From contig NZ_JAFCLG010000021.1 of the NCBI RefSeq assembly GCF_018129685.1, positions 1 through 64,000 on the forward strand: a stretch of DNA of 64,000 nucleotides. The letters run 5' to 3'. The notes beneath the pieces are model-generated. The model was not told the origin of the DNA and did no database searches. It was given only the letters and a program-made list of their open reading frames with translations. A program made the translations under genes and the position numbers. The stretch's first letter is position 1; every line of letters begins with the position of its first letter. The stretch is from Bradyrhizobium manausense. Its GTDB lineage: Bacteria; Pseudomonadota; Alphaproteobacteria; Rhizobiales; Xanthobacteraceae. Below are positions 7,506 through 49,510 of this stretch, in pieces.

Positions 7506-7970
7506 TCATATCAAATCGTGCGGGTTCCGGACCTGCCGAAGCGCTTCGCCTGCGGCCATCGCCGCGGTCATGGCGACATTGAGCGACCGCAGTCCGGGCG
7601 CGATCGGGATCACCAGCCGCGCATCCGCGGCCTCCACCACCGCATCGGTGACGCCGGCGCTCTCGCGCCCGAATAGCAGGATGTCCGACGTCTGGTAACG
7701 GAAATCGCGGTAGTCGGTAGCGCCCTTTGTGGTGAACAGCACCAGGCGGTAGCGCTGTGCCGCCCGCCACTCCTCGAATTTCCACCAGGAATCGTGCCTG
7801 ACGATGCTGACGTGGTCGAGGTAATCCATTCCCGCCCGGCGGAAATGCCGGTCGGAGACCGGGAAGCCGGCGGGTTCGATGATATGGGCGTCGATCCCCA
7901 GACAGGCGCAGAGGCGGAGAATCGTGCCGGTGTTCTGGGGAATGTCGGGTTGGAAAAGTGCGATCTGCAT
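7506..7970 (-). CDS. trmL: tRNA (cytidine(34)-2'-O)-methyltransferase
   Basis: A 154-residue SPOUT-class methyltransferase. The start MQIALFQPDIPQNTGTILR and the C-terminal IPIAPGLRSLNVA motif are typical of TrmL, which 2'-O-methylates the wobble base of tRNA-Leu. I chose ATG 7970 because family members begin at this point; an upstream GTG at 8045 would add 25 unrelated residues. It is first in a run with queE and queD, which modify the same anticodon position in other tRNAs. Confidence 0.92.
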   Translation of the reverse strand: MQIALFQPDIPQNTGTILRLCACLGIDAHIIEPAGFPVSDRHFRRAGMDYLDHVSIVRHDSWWKFEEWRAAQRYRLVLFTTKGATDYRDFRYQTSDILLFGRESAGVTDAVVEAADARLVIPIAPGLRSLNVAMTAAMAAGEALRQVRNPHDLI

Positions 7971-8249
7971 GGGCGTCACAGGGGTGGGTGTGGGCCGGAA
8001 ATGTCTCAATAAAACATCGCCGGCCGCGGAATTCGTGCATTGCACGCTCCCGCGCCGTTAGCGGGCTTGCGCTCGCCCTGCAAGGGTGCCAATAGAACGA
8101 TTCTGGACTGCTGTTTTCGCCTTGTTTTGGCGGCGACGAGCGAAGTTCTGCCGCCGCGGGGGGCCGCGGGCGCCGGCAGCGCTGTTCCGGGGACCTTGGG
8201 GGCTCCTGGAGCGGTTCCACCGGCAGCATAAGAAGAAAGGGTTGGAATC

Positions 8250-37186: not shown

Positions 37187-38116
37187 CTACAGATCCCGCT
37201 CCCAGGTCTCGCCGATCAGGTCCTGCCCGAAGCTGCGATGCGGTTTCGTCGCGACCAGCTCGAACCCGGCGCTCTTGTAGATGCCGCGCGCGGCGACCAG
37301 AATGCTCTGCGTCCACAGCGTCATCCTGCGGTAGCCGCGCTCGCGCGCGCCATTGATGCACTGCTCGACCAGGGCGCGGCCGACGCCGAGGCCGCGTGCT
37401 TTCTTCTCCACCTGCAACAGGCGGAGTTTTGCGACCTCGTCCGTGGCCTTGACCAGAAACACCGAGCCGACCGGCTCACCACCGACTTCCGCGATCCAGC
37501 AGTGTTCGCGTGCGGCATCGTAGGTCTTGATGAACTGCGCGCAGATCTCGGCGACCAGCGCCTCGTAGCTGATGTCCCAACCGTAGTCCGCGGCATAGGC
37601 AGCCGCCTGCCTGGAGATGACCCAGCCCATGTCGCCGACGCGATGGCTGCGCAGCACGACGGTCGCCGGCTGGCTCTGGCGTTGCTCGAGCAACGTCTCG
37701 ATGGTCGCCATCGCCTGCGTGAGCCGCGTCGCATCGCCGGCCGATAGCGGGGCCAGCAGGGCGGCGACCTCATTCTGCGAGCCTTGGTCCAGCTTGGCGA
37801 AGGTCTGGCGACCCTTCGCAGTGAGGCTGAGCTGGTACTGCCGGCGATCCGCGGGCAGGGGCGTTCGTGTGATCAGCCCTTTTTCGTCGAAGCCTTGGAC
37901 GATGCGGCTGAGATAGCCGGGATCGAGCCCGAGTTCGGTGCCGATCTCCTTTGCCGCAACCTCGTCGCGATGGGCGAGCTCATAGAGCACCCGCGCCTCG
38001 CTGAGCGAGAACGGGCTCTGTCCAAGGTGCTGGTCGAGCACGCCAAGCTTGCGGGTGTAGAAGCGGTTGAAGGCGCGAACCGCGGCGATCTGGTCGTCGG
38101 GACCGGTATCAGGCAT
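37187..38116 (-). CDS. MarR-type regulator fused to GNAT acetyltransferase
   Basis: A 309-residue two-domain protein. Residues 1-145 form a MarR winged helix (ARVLYELAHRDEVAAKEIGTELGLDPGYLSRIVQGFDEKGLI, then the wing). Residues 150-309 form a GNAT N-acetyltransferase with the acetyl-CoA signature KKARGLGVGRALVEQCI. This fusion is widespread but its ligand and acceptor are unknown. A nested perfect dyad 15-52 bases upstream is a likely operator for autoregulation. Confidence 0.92.
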   Translation of the reverse strand: MPDTGPDDQIAAVRAFNRFYTRKLGVLDQHLGQSPFSLSEARVLYELAHRDEVAAKEIGTELGLDPGYLSRIVQGFDEKGLITRTPLPADRRQYQLSLTAKGRQTFAKLDQGSQNEVAALLAPLSAGDATRLTQAMATIETLLEQRQSQPATVVLRSHRVGDMGWVISRQAAAYAADYGWDISYEALVAEICAQFIKTYDAAREHCWIAEVGGEPVGSVFLVKATDEVAKLRLLQVEKKARGLGVGRALVEQCINGARERGYRRMTLWTQSILVAARGIYKSAGFELVATKPHRSFGQDLIGETWERDL

Positions 38117-39087: not shown

Positions 39088-39927
39088 ATGAATGCCGATC
39101 AACTTTCCGTTGGTGCGCCGTCACCATCGCCGAAGCCGGAGGCGGCGCCGACCTTGCGGATCCGCGCCGTGATGCTGGGCGAACGCATCAATGCGTCGGG
39201 ACTCGAGATCGGTCCGGTGGTGTCCTCGACGCCCGCCGCCTTTCGGGTCCATGCCGGCCTCGCCGTGATCTTCCGCTACGGTGTCGTGGTGCTGATCGGT
39301 CTGCTTCCCTCGGAAGAGAAGGTATTGCTCGACAGCCTGAAGTCCCGCGTCACCGGCGAACTCAGCCCTCATGAAGAAGAGACCGCGCAAGCGCAGCTCT
39401 GCAAGGACGAAAACGCCGAGGCGATCCAGCCGGGCGGACCGATCAATCTCTCGAAATTTTCCGACGAGCGTTTGCTGCTGATCGCGGACGCACTCGCCAA
39501 GAGCACGTCGCTGGCGCGCGACGAGCGGCGCGTCGCTGCCGTTTTCGATGTCATCGAACCCTTTGCGCGCGAACTCGCGGAGAAAGGCCGGACCTCGCGG
39601 CGCCGCAAGGGCATCCTGCAACTGATCGGCAATGCGTTGCTGGTGCAGCAGCGGGTCGCCGGCCGTGTCGCGGTTGCCGAAAAGCCGGACGCGCTCTGGG
39701 AAAGGCCGCAGCTCGACCGTCTCTATGCGCGCCTTGAAGACGAATACGAGCTGAAGGAGCGCCTCGATACGCTCGAGCGCAAGATCACGGTCATCGCGGA
39801 AACCGCAGATGCACTCACTGACATCATCGACACCCAGCGCTCGCTGCGCCTCGAAATCGCGGTGGTGGTGCTGATCGTGATGGAGGTTGTGATCGGCTGC
39901 TTCCAGATCTTTGCCGGGATTCACTGA
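39088..39927 (+). CDS. Rmd1/YagE family (DUF155) protein
   Basis: A 279-residue protein of the Rmd1/RMND1/YagE family. The central FRYGVVVLIGL segment and the C-terminal signature YARLEDEYELKERLDTLERK, then LTDIIDTQRSLRLEIAVVVLIVMEVVIGCFQI, are typical, and the end is a membrane helix. Eukaryotic members work in mitochondrial translation; the bacterial role is unknown. Its last 205 bases are duplicated, in damaged form, at 43598-43800. Its stop overlaps the convergent PPDK-like gene by 7 bases. Confidence 0.9.
   Translation: MNADQLSVGAPSPSPKPEAAPTLRIRAVMLGERINASGLEIGPVVSSTPAAFRVHAGLAVIFRYGVVVLIGLLPSEEKVLLDSLKSRVTGELSPHEEETAQAQLCKDENAEAIQPGGPINLSKFSDERLLLIADALAKSTSLARDERRVAAVFDVIEPFARELAEKGRTSRRRKGILQLIGNALLVQQRVAGRVAVAEKPDALWERPQLDRLYARLEDEYELKERLDTLERKITVIAETADALTDIIDTQRSLRLEIAVVVLIVMEVVIGCFQIFAGIH
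39723..39927 (+). repeat. Direct repeat, intact copy (Rmd1 3' end)
   Basis: The last 205 bases of the Rmd1-family gene, from CTATGCGCGCC to the stop codon, are repeated at 43598-43800 in the same orientation with about 94 percent identity by eye. The two copies bracket the two-gene cassette. Confidence 0.93.
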
Positions 39928-41534
39928 GACGCGTCGGCGCATGCCGAGTGTGGATCGTCGGCGTGCGCCCGCCATGTCGCGATCTCGGCCAGCTCGGCCT
40001 CCGGCCGCGTCTGCGACGTCTGACAGCGTCCGAGATAGATCCGTCCCGCATCGCCCTCGATCGTGAGCCAGTCGCCCTCGTGCAGCGCGGCCACACCGAG
40101 CCGGGCCTGGCGCGTGGCGGCATCGATCTTGAGCTCGCTGCAGCCGACCACGCATGGCTTGCCCATCTGACGCGCCACCAGCGCCGCATGCGAAGTCCGG
40201 GCGCCGACTGCGGTGACGATGCCGGTCGCCACCGCAAAGCCCGCGACATCGGCCGTGCTGGTGTCGGGACGCAACAGAATGACCGGCTCGCCGGCCGCTG
40301 CAAGGCGCTTGGCGCCGTCTGAATCGAATGCCGCGCGGCCGACACCGATACCGCCGGAGGCGCCGATACCGCACGTCGCCGGCGTGCCGGAGGATACCAG
40401 CGAGATTTCGACAAGCGAGGCGAGGTCGAGGCCGGCGAGGCGAGCCAGCGCTTCGTCCTTCGCGATCAATCCCTCACGCACGAGGTCGATGGCGATCCTG
40501 ACCGCTGCGCGCGGCGTCCGCTTGGCCGTGCGGGTCTGCAAGATCCACAGCTTGCCGTCCTCGACCGTGAACTCGACATCCTGCACGTCGCCAAACTCGC
40601 CCTCGAGCCGTTTCAACACCGCGCCAAGCTCGTCCCGGATCGTCGGCAGCGCACGGGCGATCGCATCGTCCGTATCGGGCGTGCGGCGGCCGGACACGAC
40701 GTCCTCGCCCTGCGCGTCCAGCACGAGATCGATCATCGCCCGGGGCGCCCCGGTCGAAGGATCGCGCGAGAATGCCACGCCGGCACCTGAAGAAAGGCCG
40801 CCATTGCCGAACACCATGGCTTGTACGGTGACGGCGGTCCCTTCGAGGTCGTCGAGCTGCTGGAGCCTGCGATAGGTCTGAGCGCGCTCGCTCATCCAGG
40901 ACTGATAGACCGCTCGCGCCGCCGCCTCGAGCTGGGCGACCGCATCGTCGAGCCAGCCGTCGGCGCGATCCTCGACCAGCGCCTGCTCCGAGGCGGCAAG
41001 CCGCTCCAGCGCTTCGCCATCGAGCTCGCGGTCGTTGGCGACGCCCTCAGCCCCGACCAACTCGGAGATGCGCGCGGCGAACGGCGCGGGATCGAGCCCA
41101 AGCACGGTCTCGCCAAAACTCTCCAGGAAACGCCGCCGGCAATCCCATGCGAGCCGCGGCCGACCGGTCGCGCGGATCAGGCCGTGCACGGCATCCGGCG
41201 TGCAGCCGACGTCGAGAACGGTATCAAGCATGCCCGGCATCGATCGTGCCGCGCCTGACCGTACCGACACCAGAAGCGGTCGCCTGCGATCGCCGAAGCG
41301 CTTGCCGGTCACGCTCTCCAGGAACGTCAGGCCTTCCTTCAGGCCGTCGCGCAGATGCTGCGCCGCATTGGCATGGCCGGAAATGATTTCGGAGCAGAGC
41401 TTGACCGGCAGCACGAAGGCGGGCGGCACCGGCAGACCGAGCGCGGCCATCCGGGCGAGATTGGCGGCCTTGGCCCCGATCTCCTCGGCGGGCCGAAATT
41501 CGGTTGCCTCGGCGCCGATACGAACGATACGCAT
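39921..41534 (-). CDS. PPDK/PEP synthase-like protein lacking the C-terminal domain
   Basis: A 537-residue relative of pyruvate phosphate dikinase. The N-terminal nucleotide-binding part has LLVSVRSGAARSMPGMLDTVLDVG and GTAVTVQAMVFGN...GVAFSRDPSTG, and the phosphohistidine swivel domain has GARTSHAALVARQMGKPCVV with the catalytic His near residue 450. Complete PPDK is about 880 residues; the entire C-terminal PEP/pyruvate-binding barrel is absent. It can be expected to bind ATP and phosphorylate its His, with no obvious acceptor. Its last codon and stop lie inside the Rmd1 repeat. It starts 10 bases after the 642-residue partner gene. Confidence 0.85.
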   Translation of the reverse strand: MRIVRIGAEATEFRPAEEIGAKAANLARMAALGLPVPPAFVLPVKLCSEIISGHANAAQHLRDGLKEGLTFLESVTGKRFGDRRRPLLVSVRSGAARSMPGMLDTVLDVGCTPDAVHGLIRATGRPRLAWDCRRRFLESFGETVLGLDPAPFAARISELVGAEGVANDRELDGEALERLAASEQALVEDRADGWLDDAVAQLEAAARAVYQSWMSERAQTYRRLQQLDDLEGTAVTVQAMVFGNGGLSSGAGVAFSRDPSTGAPRAMIDLVLDAQGEDVVSGRRTPDTDDAIARALPTIRDELGAVLKRLEGEFGDVQDVEFTVEDGKLWILQTRTAKRTPRAAVRIAIDLVREGLIAKDEALARLAGLDLASLVEISLVSSGTPATCGIGASGGIGVGRAAFDSDGAKRLAAAGEPVILLRPDTSTADVAGFAVATGIVTAVGARTSHAALVARQMGKPCVVGCSELKIDAATRQARLGVAALHEGDWLTIEGDAGRIYLGRCQTSQTRPEAELAEIATWRAHADDPHSACADASQ

Positions 41535-41544
41535 GGTGTGTCCC

Positions 41545-43473
41545 TCAGGCTGCGAGATCGATCATGATGTGGCGGCGGAGCAGGTGACCGAACGCGGCGA
41601 AGCGATCGGTGGCGCGCTCGATGGCGCGGGCAAGCTCGATGACTGACAGCGAGGTCGCAACGTCAAAGCCGCCGCGAAAGACGAGCGTGGTGATGGCACG
41701 TTCCGTGGTGTCGGCGGCATGTTCGGCATCGATCAGGCGCGCGACGGCGGCCAGCGCGTCCTCGGAATCGATCCGTTGTCCTTCCGGCACATCCATCGCA
41801 GCCGCGACGCCGCTCGCCGCCGTTTCCGTCGCGGTCGCGGCCACCAAGCAGAGCTCGGCCAGCGACGCCAGCAAGGCTGCCTCGGTGAGCTCGGGAAGCA
41901 GCGAGCCGATAAAGGCCGCCTGCTCCAATTCGTCGATCGCCTCCTCGGCGCGGTCGATCAACTGCCCGATCACGGGCCGGGCCTCGAGGCGGTCGACCTC
42001 GTTGCGGCTCTCCAGCGCGATGCGGTCGGCCTTCTGCTCGATCGCGGCGCAACGTCCCGCCAGCAGCTTGCCGTCGGCAGGCTGGCCGGCCCCGAGCGCC
42101 GCAATATGGCGCGCGATCGCGGTAACGAGATCATGGGCCAGGCCGACCTGGCGCAGCACGGCTGCAAGCAGCGCCCCGTTGACGCGGTCGAGATGCCGCA
42201 CCAGATCGGCCTCGATCTGGTCGCGGACCGTCCTGACCGAGCGGCCCGCAAGCAGCGCCTCGGTGGAGGCCCGCAGCGCCGCCTTCAGGAAGTCGATCGC
42301 GGCCGCGCGCCCGAGCGCCTGGTCGAGGCGCTCGCCGAAGCCGATCCGCGACGGTGCAGCGTTCCTGACCGCGGAGCTGAGCAGTTCGTTGCCGCCAAGC
42401 TCGAGAAAGCCGCGATGGCCGATCCGTTTGCGGGCCGCCCATTCCAGGATGCGCGCTGCGTCGTCCTTGGCGACCCAGGTCCGCAGCAGCTTGCGGGCCT
42501 TGTTCCAGTCGATCAGGAAAACCAATGCCGCGCCAACGGCCGCGAGGAATTCGTTGCGATCGGTGGCATGATCTGCCTGAAACTGGCCGGTGACGAGATA
42601 GAACGAATTGTCTTCGCCGAGACCTGCGGCGGTGTGACGATCGAGCCCGCTCCATGTCGCCTCGAATTTGTCGAACAGCGAGATGAAGAATTTCGCCCGC
42701 GCCAGGTGCACGTCGGTGTAGGTGATGGTGACCGCGTTCTTCTTCACGGCGATCACGACGACATGGGCATCGGTGGTGCCGATGTCGTTCTGGATCAGGA
42801 GCCGTCCGCCCGCCCGTGTCGCCATGGTGTCGAGGCCGGGATGATTGAACTTGAGGCCGCGCGTGCTGTTCAGCCCCTTCATGAAGGCCGCAACCGCGGC
42901 GCGGTCCTCGCCATGCAGCGCGAAGACATGCGCGCCGTCGAGCGCTTCTTCCGAGCAGCTCGCCGCAAGCTTGTTGAGCTGCTTGTGCAGATCCATGACC
43001 AGCCGGTGCAGACTGTCTCCGGCGGTGTCGGTCACGCCGGTCAGGCGTGCGATCCGGGCGATCTCGATCTCGCCGGCGGAATCGAGCAGGCCTGCACCGC
43101 GGAACGTCTCGAGCCGCGCATTCGCTTTCCGGCCTTCATCGCCGGCGCCGGCGTCGACGGCGCGAATCATGGTCGCGGCGTCGTCCTGTATCTCATTCAT
43201 CAGCTTCGCGAGGTTCGGCGCGGCAAGCCGGTCCTGCCCGATCATATGCGCGCCGCCGATCAGCGTCGCGATTGCGGCAGGGGCAATGCCGGCGGTCTGA
43301 CTCTCAATGCCGAGATCGCTCGCGGGCCGGTCCGGGTTCCGCGCATGCTGGGCCGCTGCCTGCAGGGCACTCATGCGCACCTTGATGCGGTCATTGGCGG
43401 CGAGCCCTTCCGCCACGAGGTTCGGCAACAGAATGTCGCCCTGTCCGAGCTCTTCGATGATCTGGGTCTTCAT
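41545..43473 (-). CDS. 642-residue protein with possible DUF47-like C-terminal part
   Basis: I do not recognise this protein as a whole. The first 170 residues are helical; 190-330 look mixed alpha/beta, and include ITYTDVHLARAKFFISLFD. The last 200 residues are long helices with EQKADRIALESRNEVDRLE and EHAADTTERAITTLVFRGG, reminiscent of the DUF47/PhoU-like phosphate regulator family, but this is weak. It has no signal peptide or membrane segment. It is directly upstream of the PPDK-like gene (10-base gap), so the two very probably work together, perhaps as kinase and target. That is inference. Confidence 0.6.
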   Translation of the reverse strand: MKTQIIEELGQGDILLPNLVAEGLAANDRIKVRMSALQAAAQHARNPDRPASDLGIESQTAGIAPAAIATLIGGAHMIGQDRLAAPNLAKLMNEIQDDAATMIRAVDAGAGDEGRKANARLETFRGAGLLDSAGEIEIARIARLTGVTDTAGDSLHRLVMDLHKQLNKLAASCSEEALDGAHVFALHGEDRAAVAAFMKGLNSTRGLKFNHPGLDTMATRAGGRLLIQNDIGTTDAHVVVIAVKKNAVTITYTDVHLARAKFFISLFDKFEATWSGLDRHTAAGLGEDNSFYLVTGQFQADHATDRNEFLAAVGAALVFLIDWNKARKLLRTWVAKDDAARILEWAARKRIGHRGFLELGGNELLSSAVRNAAPSRIGFGERLDQALGRAAAIDFLKAALRASTEALLAGRSVRTVRDQIEADLVRHLDRVNGALLAAVLRQVGLAHDLVTAIARHIAALGAGQPADGKLLAGRCAAIEQKADRIALESRNEVDRLEARPVIGQLIDRAEEAIDELEQAAFIGSLLPELTEAALLASLAELCLVAATATETAASGVAAAMDVPEGQRIDSEDALAAVARLIDAEHAADTTERAITTLVFRGGFDVATSLSVIELARAIERATDRFAAFGHLLRRHIMIDLAA

Positions 43474-43597
43474 GATCTGTCCGCGCGACGTGGGGTGTCG
43501 GCATTATGCCCGCAACGCGACGGCGCGCCGTTGCGCCAGATCATTCATGTATTCGTCACAAACATCCGCGGTCATGGGGCATGCCGGCGCAGAGGCG

Positions 43598-43800
43598 CTA
43601 TGCGCGCCTCGAAGACGAATACGAGCTGAAGGAGCGCCTCGATACGCTCGAGCGCAAGATCACGGTCATCGCGGAAACCGCAGGCGCTGACCGACATCAT
43701 CGACACCCGGCGCTCGCTGCGGCTCGAAATCGCCGTGGTGGTGCTGATCGTGATGGAGGTTGTGATTGGGTGCTTCCAGATCTTTGCCGGCCTTCACTGA
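43598..43800 (+). pseudogene. Broken duplicate of the Rmd1-family 3' end
   Basis: A 203-base fragment matching the last 205 bases of the gene at 39088-39927. The coding frame is kept through AETA, then a net loss of two bases (GGCGCTGACCGAC against GATGCACTCACTGAC) shifts it out of frame, so the terminal membrane helix cannot be made. Identity resumes to the stop codon and ends there. No 5' part of the gene is present. Confidence 0.93.
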
Positions 43801-43924
43801 GCCGCGGCTGTGCGCGTCGGCGGGCTGGGCCGCCGCTGATCGCGTCGAGCGGCGGCCACGCCAAGACTTCTTCAGCCGTGGGTCACGTGCAATCACGCCT
43901 CCAGTCGTGGCGGTCGGCGCCTAT

Positions 43925-44626
43925 TCATTCGGGCAGGATTGCCTTGGCATTGTCACGGGAAAAAGCCGCCGGCACGTCGAACTTGCCCGTCTGGAGGTCG
44001 TAGCGGCAGCGCCAGCCGTTCACGACGCCCGTCCGCTCCCGCTTGCGTCCCTTGACGTCGGCTTCTCCCGAGAGGCTGATCAGAAGATAGCGGTTCGCGG
44101 GCCAGTCGACGCCCAACTCGCGATAGCTCTCGTCCAGTCCTTTCACCGGATACGCCGAGATATGATACTCCGGCTTCTTCACGATTTTTCGCCACTCGGG
44201 CGTTGTCTTCATATAGTCCCAGGCGAGGTCGCCGAGTGGCTTGCTGGTCGCGGGCCGAAAACCGCGCGGCGTGAGTTGGTAGAGATATAGCGTCGCCTCG
44301 CCCGAGCCGTACTTTTGTACGCGGACGATCCAGTTGAGGTCGTTGGTGAAGGTAAACTCGGAAGGATAGCCGGCCGGCTCCGGATCGAGCAGCGTGAACG
44401 TGTCCTGCCGGCGCGCCCAGAACTGCCACTTCCAGTCGTCATCCTCATCCTTGTTGACATATTGCTCGATGGTCGTCTTACCGTCCGGCGATGTGCGGGT
44501 CCATTTCTCGACGATCTGGTAACCTGCCGGAGGAGCCGTCGGCTGCGCGGCGCGGCATAGGCCGATGCTGCAGGCCAGAAAGAGTCCGATCCAGGAAGTT
44601 CTGAACAAGGCTTTCCTGGTCCTCAT
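43925..44626 (-). CDS. Exported protein of unknown function
   Basis: A 233-residue protein with an N-terminal signal peptide (about 1-27, ending LCRAAQ). The mature part is rich in aromatic and charged residues (DEDDDWKWQFWARR, ITNDLNWIVRVQKYGSG) and probably beta-structured. It matches no family I recognise. It is downstream of a TPR gene on the same strand, 45 bases apart, and may be cotranscribed with it. Confidence 0.7.
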   Translation of the reverse strand: MRTRKALFRTSWIGLFLACSIGLCRAAQPTAPPAGYQIVEKWTRTSPDGKTTIEQYVNKDEDDDWKWQFWARRQDTFTLLDPEPAGYPSEFTFTNDLNWIVRVQKYGSGEATLYLYQLTPRGFRPATSKPLGDLAWDYMKTTPEWRKIVKKPEYHISAYPVKGLDESYRELGVDWPANRYLLISLSGEADVKGRKRERTGVVNGWRCRYDLQTGKFDVPAAFSRDNAKAILPE

Positions 44627-44671: not shown

Positions 44672-45511
44672 TCAACGGCCGCTCAGCGCCTTTGTGACGC
44701 GCTCGACCGCCCTCGGACCGTCCGGATGGGACGGGGCCAACTCGGCGAACTTCTTGAAATCCGCCAATGCGCGTTGCAGATCGTGCTTCCGTTCCCATGA
44801 CAGGCCGCGATTGTAGAACGCACCTGCGAGATTCGGATCGAGCCGGATCGCCTCGTTCAGATCCTCGATGGCGCGGTCGAACTGACCGGTGAGGGCGTAG
44901 GAAAGCCCGCGATTGTTGAATGCTCCTGCGTATTTCGGATTGAGCCGGATCGCCTCGCTGTAATCCGCGATCGCCCGGTCGAGGTGCTGTTTGTGCCGAT
45001 AGGCGATGCCCCGGTTGTAAAACGCATCCGCGAGGTCCTGATTGAGCCTGATCGCCTGGCTCAAATCCTCGATGGCGTGATCGTATTGGCCCATATTGTT
45101 ATAGGCGAGGCCGCGGTTGCTCAGCAGGTCTGCGTCGTTCGGATGCAGCCGGACGGCCTCGTTCAGGTCCTCGATCGTGCGGTCATATTGGCGCCTGGTG
45201 TAATAGACGTGGGCGCGGTTGCTGAATGCATCTGCGTCGGTTGGATCAAGCTGGATCGCCCGGCTGCAATCGGCAATGGCCTTGTCACCTTGTTCGTCGC
45301 TCCATTCGGCGCAACGATTTGTCAGGAGGGCAACAAGATCGCGACCGCCATATCGACCGGAATCGATGGCGCGCGTGCACGCGGCGACCGCCTTGTCGGC
45401 GGAAGCGTTCGCACAGGTCTCGAGATCGTCGGCTGCGGCCGGCACCGCCGTCAGCCAGAGCGCCGACGCGAAGGCCAAAGCCAACGGCATGCCCCGCAAA
45501 ATGGACCTCAT
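44672..45511 (-). CDS. Exported TPR repeat protein
   Basis: A 279-residue protein with a signal peptide (about 1-28, AVPAAADD). From residue 60 it consists of about six 34-residue tetratricopeptide repeats (for example AFNNRGLSYALTGQFDRAIEDLNEAIRLDPN). These form a helical scaffold for protein contacts in the periplasm. The start ATG 45511 follows AAAGGGGA. Partners are unknown; the exported neighbour at 43925-44626 is a candidate. Confidence 0.9.
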   Translation of the reverse strand: MRSILRGMPLALAFASALWLTAVPAAADDLETCANASADKAVAACTRAIDSGRYGGRDLVALLTNRCAEWSDEQGDKAIADCSRAIQLDPTDADAFSNRAHVYYTRRQYDRTIEDLNEAVRLHPNDADLLSNRGLAYNNMGQYDHAIEDLSQAIRLNQDLADAFYNRGIAYRHKQHLDRAIADYSEAIRLNPKYAGAFNNRGLSYALTGQFDRAIEDLNEAIRLDPNLAGAFYNRGLSWERKHDLQRALADFKKFAELAPSHPDGPRAVERVTKALSGR

Positions 45512-45814
45512 GAAAATCCCCTTTCAAAAAGCTGTTACCGCCTCGAGTCGCGTCTGCGACCGCAGCCGGGGATGCCGCAGGCGATGAACAGGCCAATCGA
45601 CGAAGTCGTGATACCGCTGTCCTGGCCCGTCATCATCCGGCTCGCTCGATCCGTTCATGCGATTAGTCGCGCATGTCCCGTTCAAGTTCGCGGCAGTGAA
45701 CCTCTCCGGTCCGTCCACCGACGAATGACCGCGATCACTGCATGAGCGAGTGCGGATAGAGACCCGCCCGGCGCTTCGCGCCGCCTTCTCGTAAGAAGGA
45801 AGAGCAGCCGACGT
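45512..45814. other. Intergenic region with hairpins after ackA
   Basis: About 300 bases between two minus-strand genes. CCTTCT (45784-45789) and AGAAGG (45794-45799) form a small hairpin, and a GGCGC/GCGCC hairpin lies beside it, 15-50 bases beyond the ackA stop, without a T-run. They may slow transcription. No gene was recognised. Confidence 0.45.
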
Positions 45815-46993
45815 TCAACTCACCAATAGCGCGGCACAGTGCCGTGCCATCGTCACTTCCTCATTGGTTGGGATCACGAGGACACTCACGGCGCTGTCTT
45901 CGGCATTGATCCGCTCGTTCGCCGCATCGTTCGCCGCAACATCGATCCGCACGCCGAGCCAGGCGAGTCGCTCGCCGATCGCGGCCCGGATCTGCTTCGC
46001 ATGCTCGCCGATACCGCCGGTGAAGACGAGGCCGTCGAGCCCCCCGAGCGTGTTCGCCATCACCGCGATCTCCTGCGCCGCACGGAAGGTGAAGAGATCG
46101 ATCGCCTCGCGTGCCCAGGGCTCGCTGCTCGCAAGCAGCGTCCGCATGTCCGCGGAGAGGCCGGAGACGCCGAGCAGGCCGGACTCGTGGTAGAGCAGAT
46201 GCTGCAAATCCTCGGCCGACATCTTTTCATGCTGCAGCAGATAGAGCAGCACGCCGGGATCGATCGCGCCGCAGCGCGTGCCCATGACGAGGCCGTCGAG
46301 TGGTGTCAGTCCCATCGTGGTGTCGACGCTGCGCCCGTCGCGCAAGGCGCAGAGGCTGGCGCCATTGCCGAGATGGGCAATGACGGTGCGTTTGGCTGCA
46401 AATTCCGGTGCGATCTCGATGAGACGGCTGGCGACATATTCGAACGAGAGCCCGTGGAAGCCGTAGCGCCGCAAGCCCAGTGCTTCGTAGCGTCGAGGAA
46501 TCGCGACGCGGTTCGCCGGCGGTGTCATGCCGTGATGAAAGGCGGTGTCGAAGCAGGCGATCTGCGTCAGGGCGGGACGGATGGCCTTGATGGGACGAAC
46601 CGGTGCAAGGCACCGCGGCTGATGCAGCGGCGCCAGCGGCGTCAGTGCCTCCAGCTTCGCGTAGATATCTTCGGTCAGCTCGACCGGACCCGAATAGTCC
46701 GGTCCGCCGTGGACGATGCGGTGGCCGACAGCACGCAAGCGGTGATCGCCGAAACGGTCTTCGATGAGGGTCAGCACATCGGCGAACAGATGGCCGCCGT
46801 CGCCATCTGATGCGTCCCTTTGCGTCTCGAACATCGTCTCGCCAGATGGGCTCTTGGCGACGAGCCGCGGCTTCGCCTCGTGCTCGTCGAGAAGGCCGTT
46901 GCAGAGCAGGGCAGGCTCGCCCGCCGAAATATCGAACAGGCCGAACTTGATGCTCGACGAGCCTGCGTTGAGGACGAGGACTGACGCCGTCAT
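45815..46993 (-). CDS. ackA: Acetate kinase
   Basis: A 392-residue acetate kinase that makes ATP from acetyl phosphate. It has the N-terminal [58 protein letters not shown] and the C-terminal FTGGIGEHA signatures. Its ATG overlaps the xfp stop (ATGA), so it is translated with phosphoketolase, which supplies acetyl phosphate. No phosphotransacetylase gene is adjacent. Confidence 0.97.
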
Positions 46994-49377
46994 GCCGCCT
47001 TGCCTGGCCAGGCCCAGTCACGGATCGCTGGCATGTCCTCGCCATGCTCGCGCACGTAACGCGAATGCGCGATCAGGGCGTCGCGGAATTGCTGCTTCAC
47101 ATGTGCGGCCTTGGTCGCAAGATCAGGGACGCGCTCGATCGCCTCGATCGCGAGGTGATAGCGGTCGAGCTCGTTGAGCACGACCATGTCGAACGGCGTC
47201 GTCGTCGTGCCTTCCTCGGCAAAGCCGCGCACATGCAGGCCGGCATGGTTGGTACGATTATAGGTGAGGCGGTGGATCAGCTGGGGATAGCCGTGATAGG
47301 CGAAGATCACGGGCTTGTCCTTCGTGAACAGGCTGTCGAAATCGCGATCGGAGAGGCCATGCGGATGCTGCTCCTTCGGCTGCAGCGTCATGAGATCGAC
47401 GACGTTGACGACGCGAATCCTGAGGTCCGGCAGCGCCCTGCGCAGCAGATCGACGGCTGCGAGCGTCTCCAGCGTCGGCACGTCGCCGGCACAAGCCATC
47501 ACCACGTCGGGCTCGTTGTCGGCGTCTTCGTTGCCGGCCCAGGTCCAGATGCCGATGCCGGCATCGCAATGCGTCGCCGCCTCCTGCATCGACAGCCATT
47601 GCGGCGCCGGTTGCTTGCCGGCCACGATCACGTTGATGCGGTTATAGGTGCGCAGGCAGTGATCGGCGATCCACAGCAATGTATTGGCGTCAGGCGGAAA
47701 GTAGATGCGGACGATATCGGCCTTCTTGTTGGCGACGAGATCGACGAAGCCAGGATCCTGATGGCTGAAGCCGTTATGGTCCTGCCGCCACACATGCGAT
47801 GTCAGCAGATAGTTCAGCGAGGCGATCGGCCGACGCCACGGCAGGTGCCGCGTCACCTTCAGCCATTTGGCGTGCTGGTTGAACATGGAATCGACGATGT
47901 GGATGAAGGCCTCATAGCAGGAGAAGAAGCCGTGCCGCCCCGTCAGCAGGTAACCTTCCAGCCAGCCCTGGCAGAGATGTTCGCTCAGCACCTCCATCAC
48001 GCGGCCGTCTTGCGCCAGATGCACGTCGTAAGGCTCGATCGGCTCCATCCAGACGCGTTCGGTGGCGTCGAACACGGCATCCAGCCGGTTTGACGCGGTT
48101 TCGTCCGGCCCCATGATGCGGAAATTGCGCTCGGCAGCGTTGAGGCGGATGACGTCGCGCAAAAATTTGCCGAGCTCGCGCGTGGCTTCACCCGTGACGG
48201 CGCCGGGCCCTGGAACCTCGACCGCAAAACTGCGGAAGTCCGGCAGCTTCAGCTCCTTCTTCAACAGCCCGCCATTGGCGTGTGGATTGGCGCCCATGCG
48301 CCTGATGCCTTCAGGCGCGAGGGCCTGAAGCTCCGGAACGAGCGCGCCGCTCTTGTCGAACAGCTTTTCCGGCTCGTAGCTGCGCATCCAGTCTTCGAGA
48401 ATTTTCAAGTGGGCCGGGTTCTCGCGGCAATTCGCGACCGGCACCTGATGCGCCCGCCAAAATCCTTCGACCTTCTTGCCGTCGACCTCCTTTGGGCCGG
48501 TCCAGCCCTTCGGGCTGCGCAGCACGATCATCGGCCATCGCGGCCGCTCGATCGTCTTGCGCCCGTCGCGGGCGTGCTGCTGGATCGAGCGGATACTGGC
48601 GATTGCAACGTCGAGCGCATCGGCCATGGCCCGATGCATCAGCTGGGGATCGTCGCCCTCGACGAACAGCGGCTCGTGGCCGAACCCGTGGAAGAGGTCG
48701 CGGATCTCGCTGTCGGGCATCCGCCCGAGCACGGTCGGATTGGCGATCTTGTAGCCGTTGAGATGCAGGATCGGCAGCACCGCGCCGTCATGCGCGGGGT
48801 TGAGGAACTTGTTCGAGTGCCAGGATGCGGCGAGCGGGCCGGTCTCGGCCTCGCCGTCGCCGACGACGCAGGCGACGATCAAATCGGGATTGTCCAGCGC
48901 CGCGCCATAGGCATGCACCAGCGCGTAGCCGAGCTCGCCGCCTTCATGGATCGAACCCGGTGTTTCCGGCGCTGCGTGGCTCGGGATGCCGCCGGGGAAG
49001 GAGAACTGCCTGAACAGTTTCCGCAATCCGTCCGCATCGCGCGGAATGTTTGGATAGATCTCGCTGTAGCTGCCTTCGAGATAGGTGTTGGCGACCATGC
49101 CGGGGCCGCCATGGCCGGGGCCGCAGACATAGAGCACGCTCAGGTCCAGCGCGCGGATGACGCGGTTGAGGTGGGCGTAGATGAAGTTCAGCCCTGGCGT
49201 GGTGCCCCAATGGCCGAGCAAACGCGGCTTGATGTGCTCGGGCCGCAAGGGCTCGCGGAGCAGCGGGTTGTCGAGCAGATAGATTTGTCCGACGGAGAGA
49301 TAGTTCGCGGCGCGCCAGTAGCGATCGAGGAGAGCGAGGTCGCTGCTTGCAGCGGACGATTGTCGTTGATTTGTCAT
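46990..49377 (-). CDS. xfp: Phosphoketolase
   Basis: A 795-residue thiamine diphosphate enzyme that splits xylulose 5-phosphate (and possibly fructose 6-phosphate) to acetyl phosphate. Family features include [26 protein letters not shown] near residue 150, [12 protein letters not shown] with the thiamine-binding GDGE motif, and [15 protein letters not shown]-type sequence. ATG 49377 is preferred over GTG 49395; the ribosome site is not decisive. With ackA it forms an ATP-yielding bypass of glycolysis, common in soil rhizobia. Confidence 0.96.
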
Positions 49378-49510
49378 ATTGCAGCCGATCTCCACCAGGG
49401 ATCGTCATCAACCGAGTTCCGGTGAGATCGATCCTTCCGCGGCATCAAACGAGATTGCGATGAGGCGGTGTTGCGTGAGGTCAAAAGTCGGCGCGCGAAG
49501 TTTGGGCAGT

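Follow-up and report, generated by a model that had tools for sequence, protein, structure and literature searches.

A repeated Rmd1 gene end in Bradyrhizobium manausense as the likely product of a head-to-tail fusion between two alleles

The repeated gene end and its surroundings

The 3′ end of a gene of the Rmd1/RMND1 family stands twice in a locus of Bradyrhizobium manausense (genome G000), on either side of two other genes, and the question is how such an arrangement arose. The window, i.e., the whole stretch of DNA analysed, comprises 64,000 nucleotides of contig NZ_JAFCLG010000021.1, and the features of the locus are listed in Table 1. The last 205 nt of the Rmd1 (DUF155) gene recur on the same strand as a copy of 203 nt with 94% identity (E = 6e-84), the two copies being 3670 nt apart. 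In a DNA search of the whole genome with E up to 0.001, the left and the right copies were the only two matches. The right copy differs from the left one by 11 substitutions and one 2-nt deletion, and this deletion breaks the reading frame. The direct repeat of a 205-base gene end with a 2-base net deletion, described in the sequence-only reading of this DNA as a good and a broken copy, was thereby confirmed, the left copy being in frame and the right one frameshifted.

Table 1. Features of the Rmd1–xfp locus in the window (positions are those of the window).
Feature	Position	Strand	Basis
Rmd1/RMND1-family gene, intact (DUF155, PF02582)	39088..39927	+	Pfam, E 5.8e-35
Left copy of the repeat, in-frame Rmd1 3′ end	39723..39927	+	DNA search
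PPDK-like gene, 537 aa; nucleotide-binding and phosphohistidine domains	39921..41534	-	PF01326, PF00391
P642, 642 aa, C-terminal PhoU-like domain (about residues 421–640)	41545..43473	-	Family profiles and predicted fold
P642–ackA spacer, cassette-plus type	43474..43555	.	Aligned with G244, G264, G034, G163 and others
Stub of a lost ackA, covering its final 13 codons plus the stop (RLCAGMPHDRGCL)	43556..43597	-	Cf. RHCAGMLRDREDL in G034
New joint between the ackA stub and codon 212 of Rmd1	43597..43598	.	1 nt certain overlap
Right copy of the repeat, Rmd1 3′ end with broken frame; presumed start of the cassette-minus allele	43598..43800	+	DNA search
P233 protein	43925..44626	-	No Pfam or NCBIfam match
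TPR protein	44672..45511	-	Pfam TPR families
Stretch like the Rmd1–ackA intergenic DNA of some minus genomes	45735..45790	.	Similarity over 55–60 nt
ackA, intact; 9 residues from RHC motif to stop	45815..46993	-	PF00871
xfp, phosphoketolase, operon head	46990..49395	-	PF09364, PF03894, PF09363

The two genes between the copies, referred to below as the cassette, are the PPDK-like gene and P642. No recombinase was seen, in agreement with the earlier remark that an integrase is lacking. The PPDK-like protein matches the PPDK model (865 positions) at 17–524, so its C-terminal part seems to be lacking; the scores of TIGR01828 and NF004531 were both below the cut-offs. The P642 protein of the window has no Pfam or NCBIfam match of its own. 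DUF47/PhoU_div is recognised in 27 of 36 members of the P642 family (E up to 0.1, lowest value 2.9e-8), the window protein not being one of them. A C-terminal PhoU fold is seen in the predicted structure (mean pLDDT 89; 3l39, Z 24.3, rmsd 2.7 over 205 residues), and the fold comparison beyond residues 421–642 returned weak rows only. A role of P642 in phosphate or PEP metabolism can be guessed at.

The pairing of the two genes is conserved. Of 79 P642 loci, which come from Proteobacteria and a single Acidobacteriaceae genome, 78 have the PPDK-like gene directly downstream; in the remaining one the contig ends. In the Bradyrhizobium-type loci fetched, the pair forms the distal end of an xfp–ackA–P642–PPDK operon convergent with Rmd1. 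A PPDK orthologue was counted in 64 of 265 genomes of the genus (own genome included, rows of at least 680 bits), and a P642 match was found in 40 of 146 genomes, again including the own one. A literature search on this operon in Bradyrhizobium brought up work on a methanotroph.

The GC and GC3 values of the PPDK-like gene (0.69 and 0.81) and P642 (0.67 and 0.83) fall within the range of the flanking genes CcrM–Rmd1 and AckA–SPL (GC 0.63–0.70, GC3 0.78–0.87). The foreign composition of the cassette that a comparison with the flanks might have revealed was therefore rejected. The values for P233 and the TPR gene are lower (GC 0.61–0.62, GC3 0.75–0.78). Among 100 genomes, the closest relative of P233 was found in G014 (79% aa), where a C-terminal piece of the TPR protein adjoins P233 too. 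P233 has a match in 37 of the 100 genomes searched and two paralogues in its own genome (G000:C1:1016255-1016929 and G000:C36:1522-2190, with 70% and 49% aa identity). The stretch at 45735–45790 is 78% identical to G140 and G018 and 76% identical to a minus-like piece of G061, and may be a dispersed repeat. At 37187–38116, MarR regulator and GNAT acetyltransferase domains are found on one protein.

Cassette-plus and cassette-minus loci in relatives

The corresponding loci of 62 relatives were compared; they were picked for closeness or for carrying the pair and form a non-random sample. The PPDK-like gene and P642 are present at the same place in 33 of these loci (cassette-plus) and absent in 29 (cassette-minus), and the latter supply the Rmd1 gene with a single 3′ end and without the cassette that had been proposed as a check. 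A second full-size Rmd1 end was found within 9 kb downstream in none of the 33 other cassette-plus loci; one 17-nt match to the Rmd1 end, in G034, is probably fortuitous. Among the 29 minus loci, 25 have an intact-looking ackA as the next mapped gene (in G206 after a PPDK scrap), ackA is broken in G036, and it was not found in G017, G173 and G189. The PPDK scrap in G206 and a P642 scrap in G017 mark some of the minus states as losses. A partial P642 DNA match was also observed in the minus genome G126. In G173 and G189, xfp is absent (with a partial DNA match at most in G189), and Rmd1 is followed by SPL as the next conserved gene.

On a flank tree of 63 chosen genomes, the cassette state changed at least 12 times; in 500 shuffles, the mean was 21 and the minimum 14. 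Genome G134 falls inside the window clade for PPDK and P642 (support 1.0) and far off on the flank tree; the cassette has thus moved between lineages.

The sister of the window genome on the flank tree is G244 (support 1.0), and this grouping recurs with high support in the single trees of MarR+GT2 (0.997), Rmd1 (0.999), PPDK (0.984) and the far part of xfp (0.999). It is low for P642 (0.338) and SPL (0.118). G244 carries the cassette, has no right copy and shows an internally deleted ackA. Its PPDK-like frame is interrupted by a stop (TAG), which, together with the ackA deletion, is a sign of operon decay. The ratio of PPDK to flank divergence between the window genome and G244 is 1.53, nine other pairs giving 0.75–1.95; the P642 ratio is 1.76, compared to 0.76–1.42 in the nine other pairs. 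The high P642 ratio and the low support for the grouping suggest that parts of P642 may have been exchanged. Most simply, the cassette is old in the window lineage, with a possible later exchange within P642. Plain insertion of the cassette from outside into an empty site was rejected, since the sister already carries the cassette.

In the AckA tree, the window genome stands beside the plus genomes G264 and G061 with a support of 0.283. The near part of xfp has lost its closeness to G244 and groups with G036, G264 and G061 (0.901), so G244 may be the odd one there. A foreign block reaching up to 47.9 kb, suggested by sliding identity, is not claimed here, as the tree of this stretch leaves G244 possibly odd.

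The joint, the two copies and their origin

The left side of the arrangement contains no new joint, and the layout from Rmd1 to the PPDK-like gene is that of the plus relatives. On the other side, P642 is followed by the plus-type spacer, a 42-nt ackA end on the minus strand and then an abrupt switch to Rmd1 codon 212; an intact ackA lies 2.2 kb beyond this joint. The overlap between the ackA stub and Rmd1 implies little homology: a microhomology of 5 nt, taken from the end of a BLAST match, shrank on inspection to 1 certain nucleotide. An assembly artefact is, by reasoning only, unlikely, the joint lying in non-repeated DNA and the copies being different.

Counted from the RHC motif onwards, AckA ends after 13 residues in 30 of the 32 ackA-bearing plus relatives (including G029, G257 and G260, counted by eye because of an altered motif), the exceptions being G014 (14 residues) and G089 (17). 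Tails of 7–16 residues were found in 25 minus genomes. In this comparison, made after the fact, the stub of the window has a tail of 13 residues and the intact ackA a tail of 9.

The two copies of the Rmd1 end also carry a record of their history. Nine of the 11 substitutions between them are located at third codon positions (binomial P = 0.0014), and in the second part of the repeat the count is 8 of 10 (P = 0.0034), which indicates that the copies diverged as working genes. One substitution falls in the first 86 nt and ten in the rest (Fisher P = 0.026); this value is weak evidence, as the 86-nt boundary was picked after the fact. In the first 86 nt, the right copy has the states of the lineage of G000 and G244, so the minus allele was either already a mosaic or was converted later by the left copy. 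At the 14 columns in which left and right differ, gap columns included, G244 agrees with the left copy in 10 and with the right one in 2. At seven of the 11 substitutions, 20 or more of the 62 relatives have the base of the right copy; at one it is present in 11 relatives and at two in 3. The repeat tail is too short to give a supported tree.

The locus is likely a tandem fusion of a cassette-plus and a cassette-minus allele. Its left part would be a plus allele, Rmd1–PPDK–P642–ackA, cut 42 nt inside the ackA 3′ end, and its right part a minus allele cut at Rmd1 codon 212 and running from the Rmd1 3′ end through P233, TPR and ackA to xfp. The changeover from plus to minus would lie at 43597/43598. 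A single illegitimate joint, almost devoid of homology, would connect the alleles, and the second exchange would have been an ordinary homologous recombination in the shared flank, leaving no scar. Homology-facilitated illegitimate recombination produces this pattern, as would an illegitimate exchange between two chromosome copies with different alleles. The repeat, the ackA stub, the abrupt joint and the occurrence of both allele types among relatives are observed; from these we infer that the right-hand block is the minus allele and that the joint was made by one event. The own genome harbors two Ku genes over the cut-off and a protein with a Competence domain (PF03772), which makes end joining possible without proving it.

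Several findings weigh against the fusion. The predicted empty site, which would represent the unfused minus allele (Rmd1, then the DNA at 43801, P233 and TPR), was absent among the matches listed for 265 genomes of the genus. The AckA tree, with its support of 0.283, does not favour a minus-type ackA in the window, and a tail of plus length is found in 6 of the 25 minus genomes as well. The own-lineage states at the start of the right copy, the strong divergence of P642 from G244 and the possible dispersed-repeat nature of 45735–45790 also count against it. In addition, ackA is lost in G244, and the right-copy base G at 39836 occurs in none of the 62 relatives.

This last base would fit a duplication within one genome, in which, with no second allele involved, the end of Rmd1 was copied next to that of ackA and then decayed, as would the near identity of the first 86 nt and the frameshift of the right copy. 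Simple duplication and decay, however, predicts differences blind to codon position, and the excess at third positions is not what it predicts. Neither does this course account for the seven right-copy bases that are common among the relatives, nor for the presence of both an ackA stub next to P642 and an intact ackA with a different tail, and we regard it as improbable. Still less probable is the layout proposed at first sight, a mobile or integrative element that brought PPDK and P642 into the 3′ end of Rmd1 and rebuilt the gene from a copy of its own. A good left copy, a broken right copy, their direct orientation and the patchy distribution of the cassette on the flank tree are what such an element would leave. 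However, no recombinase is seen between the copies, the same genes stand at the same place in the 33 plus relatives without a second full-size Rmd1 end, they continue into ackA and xfp, and the right copy adjoins an ackA stub instead of an element end. The single Rmd1 ends of the other carriers and the membership of the genes in the xfp operon led us to reject an integrated element; the companion suggestion, that recombination rather than an active element was at work, is supported. The PPDK-like stop codon (39921–39923) does fall within the left copy, as had been pointed out, but it is no trace of an insertion: the same end-to-end overlap of Rmd1 and PPDK is present in G034, G163 and G264, which are cassette-plus and have a single Rmd1 end.

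Within the fusion reading, either allele may have been the resident and the other the incoming one. Both directions fit, G244 being nearest on both sides, with SPL alone at 0.118. One possible course, to which we would give somewhat less than an even chance, is that a cassette-minus resident took the cassette back from a plus donor related to G244. A single crossover near 39809 would then explain the step in identity without an extra conversion, and the cassette has moved between lineages, as G134 illustrates. On the other hand, the sister G244 has the cassette, and the PPDK ratio of 1.53 is as vertical inheritance predicts, although the P642 ratio of 1.76 does not fit it. The reverse course, in which a cassette-plus resident received a minus-allele block from the Rmd1 end to ackA, seems to us just as possible. 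It agrees with a G244-like left copy and PPDK, with an intact ackA that has no usual plus tail and with the near xfp that is no longer close to G244. Against it stand the own-lineage states in the first 86 nt of the right copy and the fact that near xfp still groups with G036, G264 and G061, where G244 may be the odd one.

Similar scars and comparison with known systems

Two further genomes carry traces of a related kind. In G061, an intact Rmd1 is followed by about 200 nt of minus-like intergenic DNA, then by some 32 nt of a decayed Rmd1 tail and by PPDK. The 200-nt piece starts near the Rmd1 stop and resembles what lies between the genes in G140, G018 and G106, all minus genomes; G264, the neighbour of G061, has a plus allele without such a scar. 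This type of intergenic DNA looks repeat-like, and an insertion is therefore an alternative reading of G061. In G014, a decayed ackA 3′ piece beside P642 is followed, in this order, by P233, a scrap of TPR, another copy of the ackA 3′ end and the intact ackA. At 7640–8000 of the G014 locus (turned orientation), a tandem duplication of a repeat-like element and the ackA 3′ end precedes the intact ackA. The scars of G061, with its mirror order, and G014 suggest repeated fusion. Tentatively, the Rmd1–ackA junction can be viewed as a recurrent fusion site at which illegitimate joins arose several times and in both orders within the genus: plus–minus in G000, minus–plus in G061 and another plus-type stub in G014. 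Allele fusion, with no mobile elements, would on the same tentative reading be a regular route of gain and loss for the two distal genes of the operon.

If the fusion reading is right, the locus shows how, in wild bacteria, an operon can gain or lose an accessory gene pair with no mobile element involved, and both parental versions are still recognisable, the scar retaining one end of each parental allele. A duplicated gene end then need not mean an integrated element, which corrects the natural guess. The length of the AckA tail may serve as a rough marker of the allele type.

The process itself has known counterparts. Homology-facilitated illegitimate recombination is reported in naturally competent species and in E. 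coli conjugation (PMC3240628). The likeness lies in a scarless homologous side combined with a joint of almost no homology; in our case, however, only the evolutionary product is seen, and it consists of two alleles of one locus. The arrays of orphan immunity genes of the Vibrio cholerae T6SS (PMC5361080) resemble the locus in that a new module stands before the displaced older 3′ end, and a process similar to homology-facilitated illegitimate recombination has been proposed for them by the authors. The modules there are effector–immunity pairs, whereas a central-metabolism operon is concerned here, and nothing evident would select for retention of the displaced end. The small variable segments of bacterial genomes (PMC2884548) are likewise blocks present or absent at fixed places; most do not resemble known mobile elements, and they are ascribed to illegitimate recombination, possibly homology-assisted; unlike them, the window locus retains pieces of both alleles in tandem. 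Merodiploids formed in transformation (PMC3784515) share the tandem duplication and the unequal exchange between chromosome copies, but there the duplications span about 100 to 900 kb and arise by pairing of homologous repeats, whereas 203 nt and an illegitimate joint are found here. We judge the locus to be a good case of a known process.
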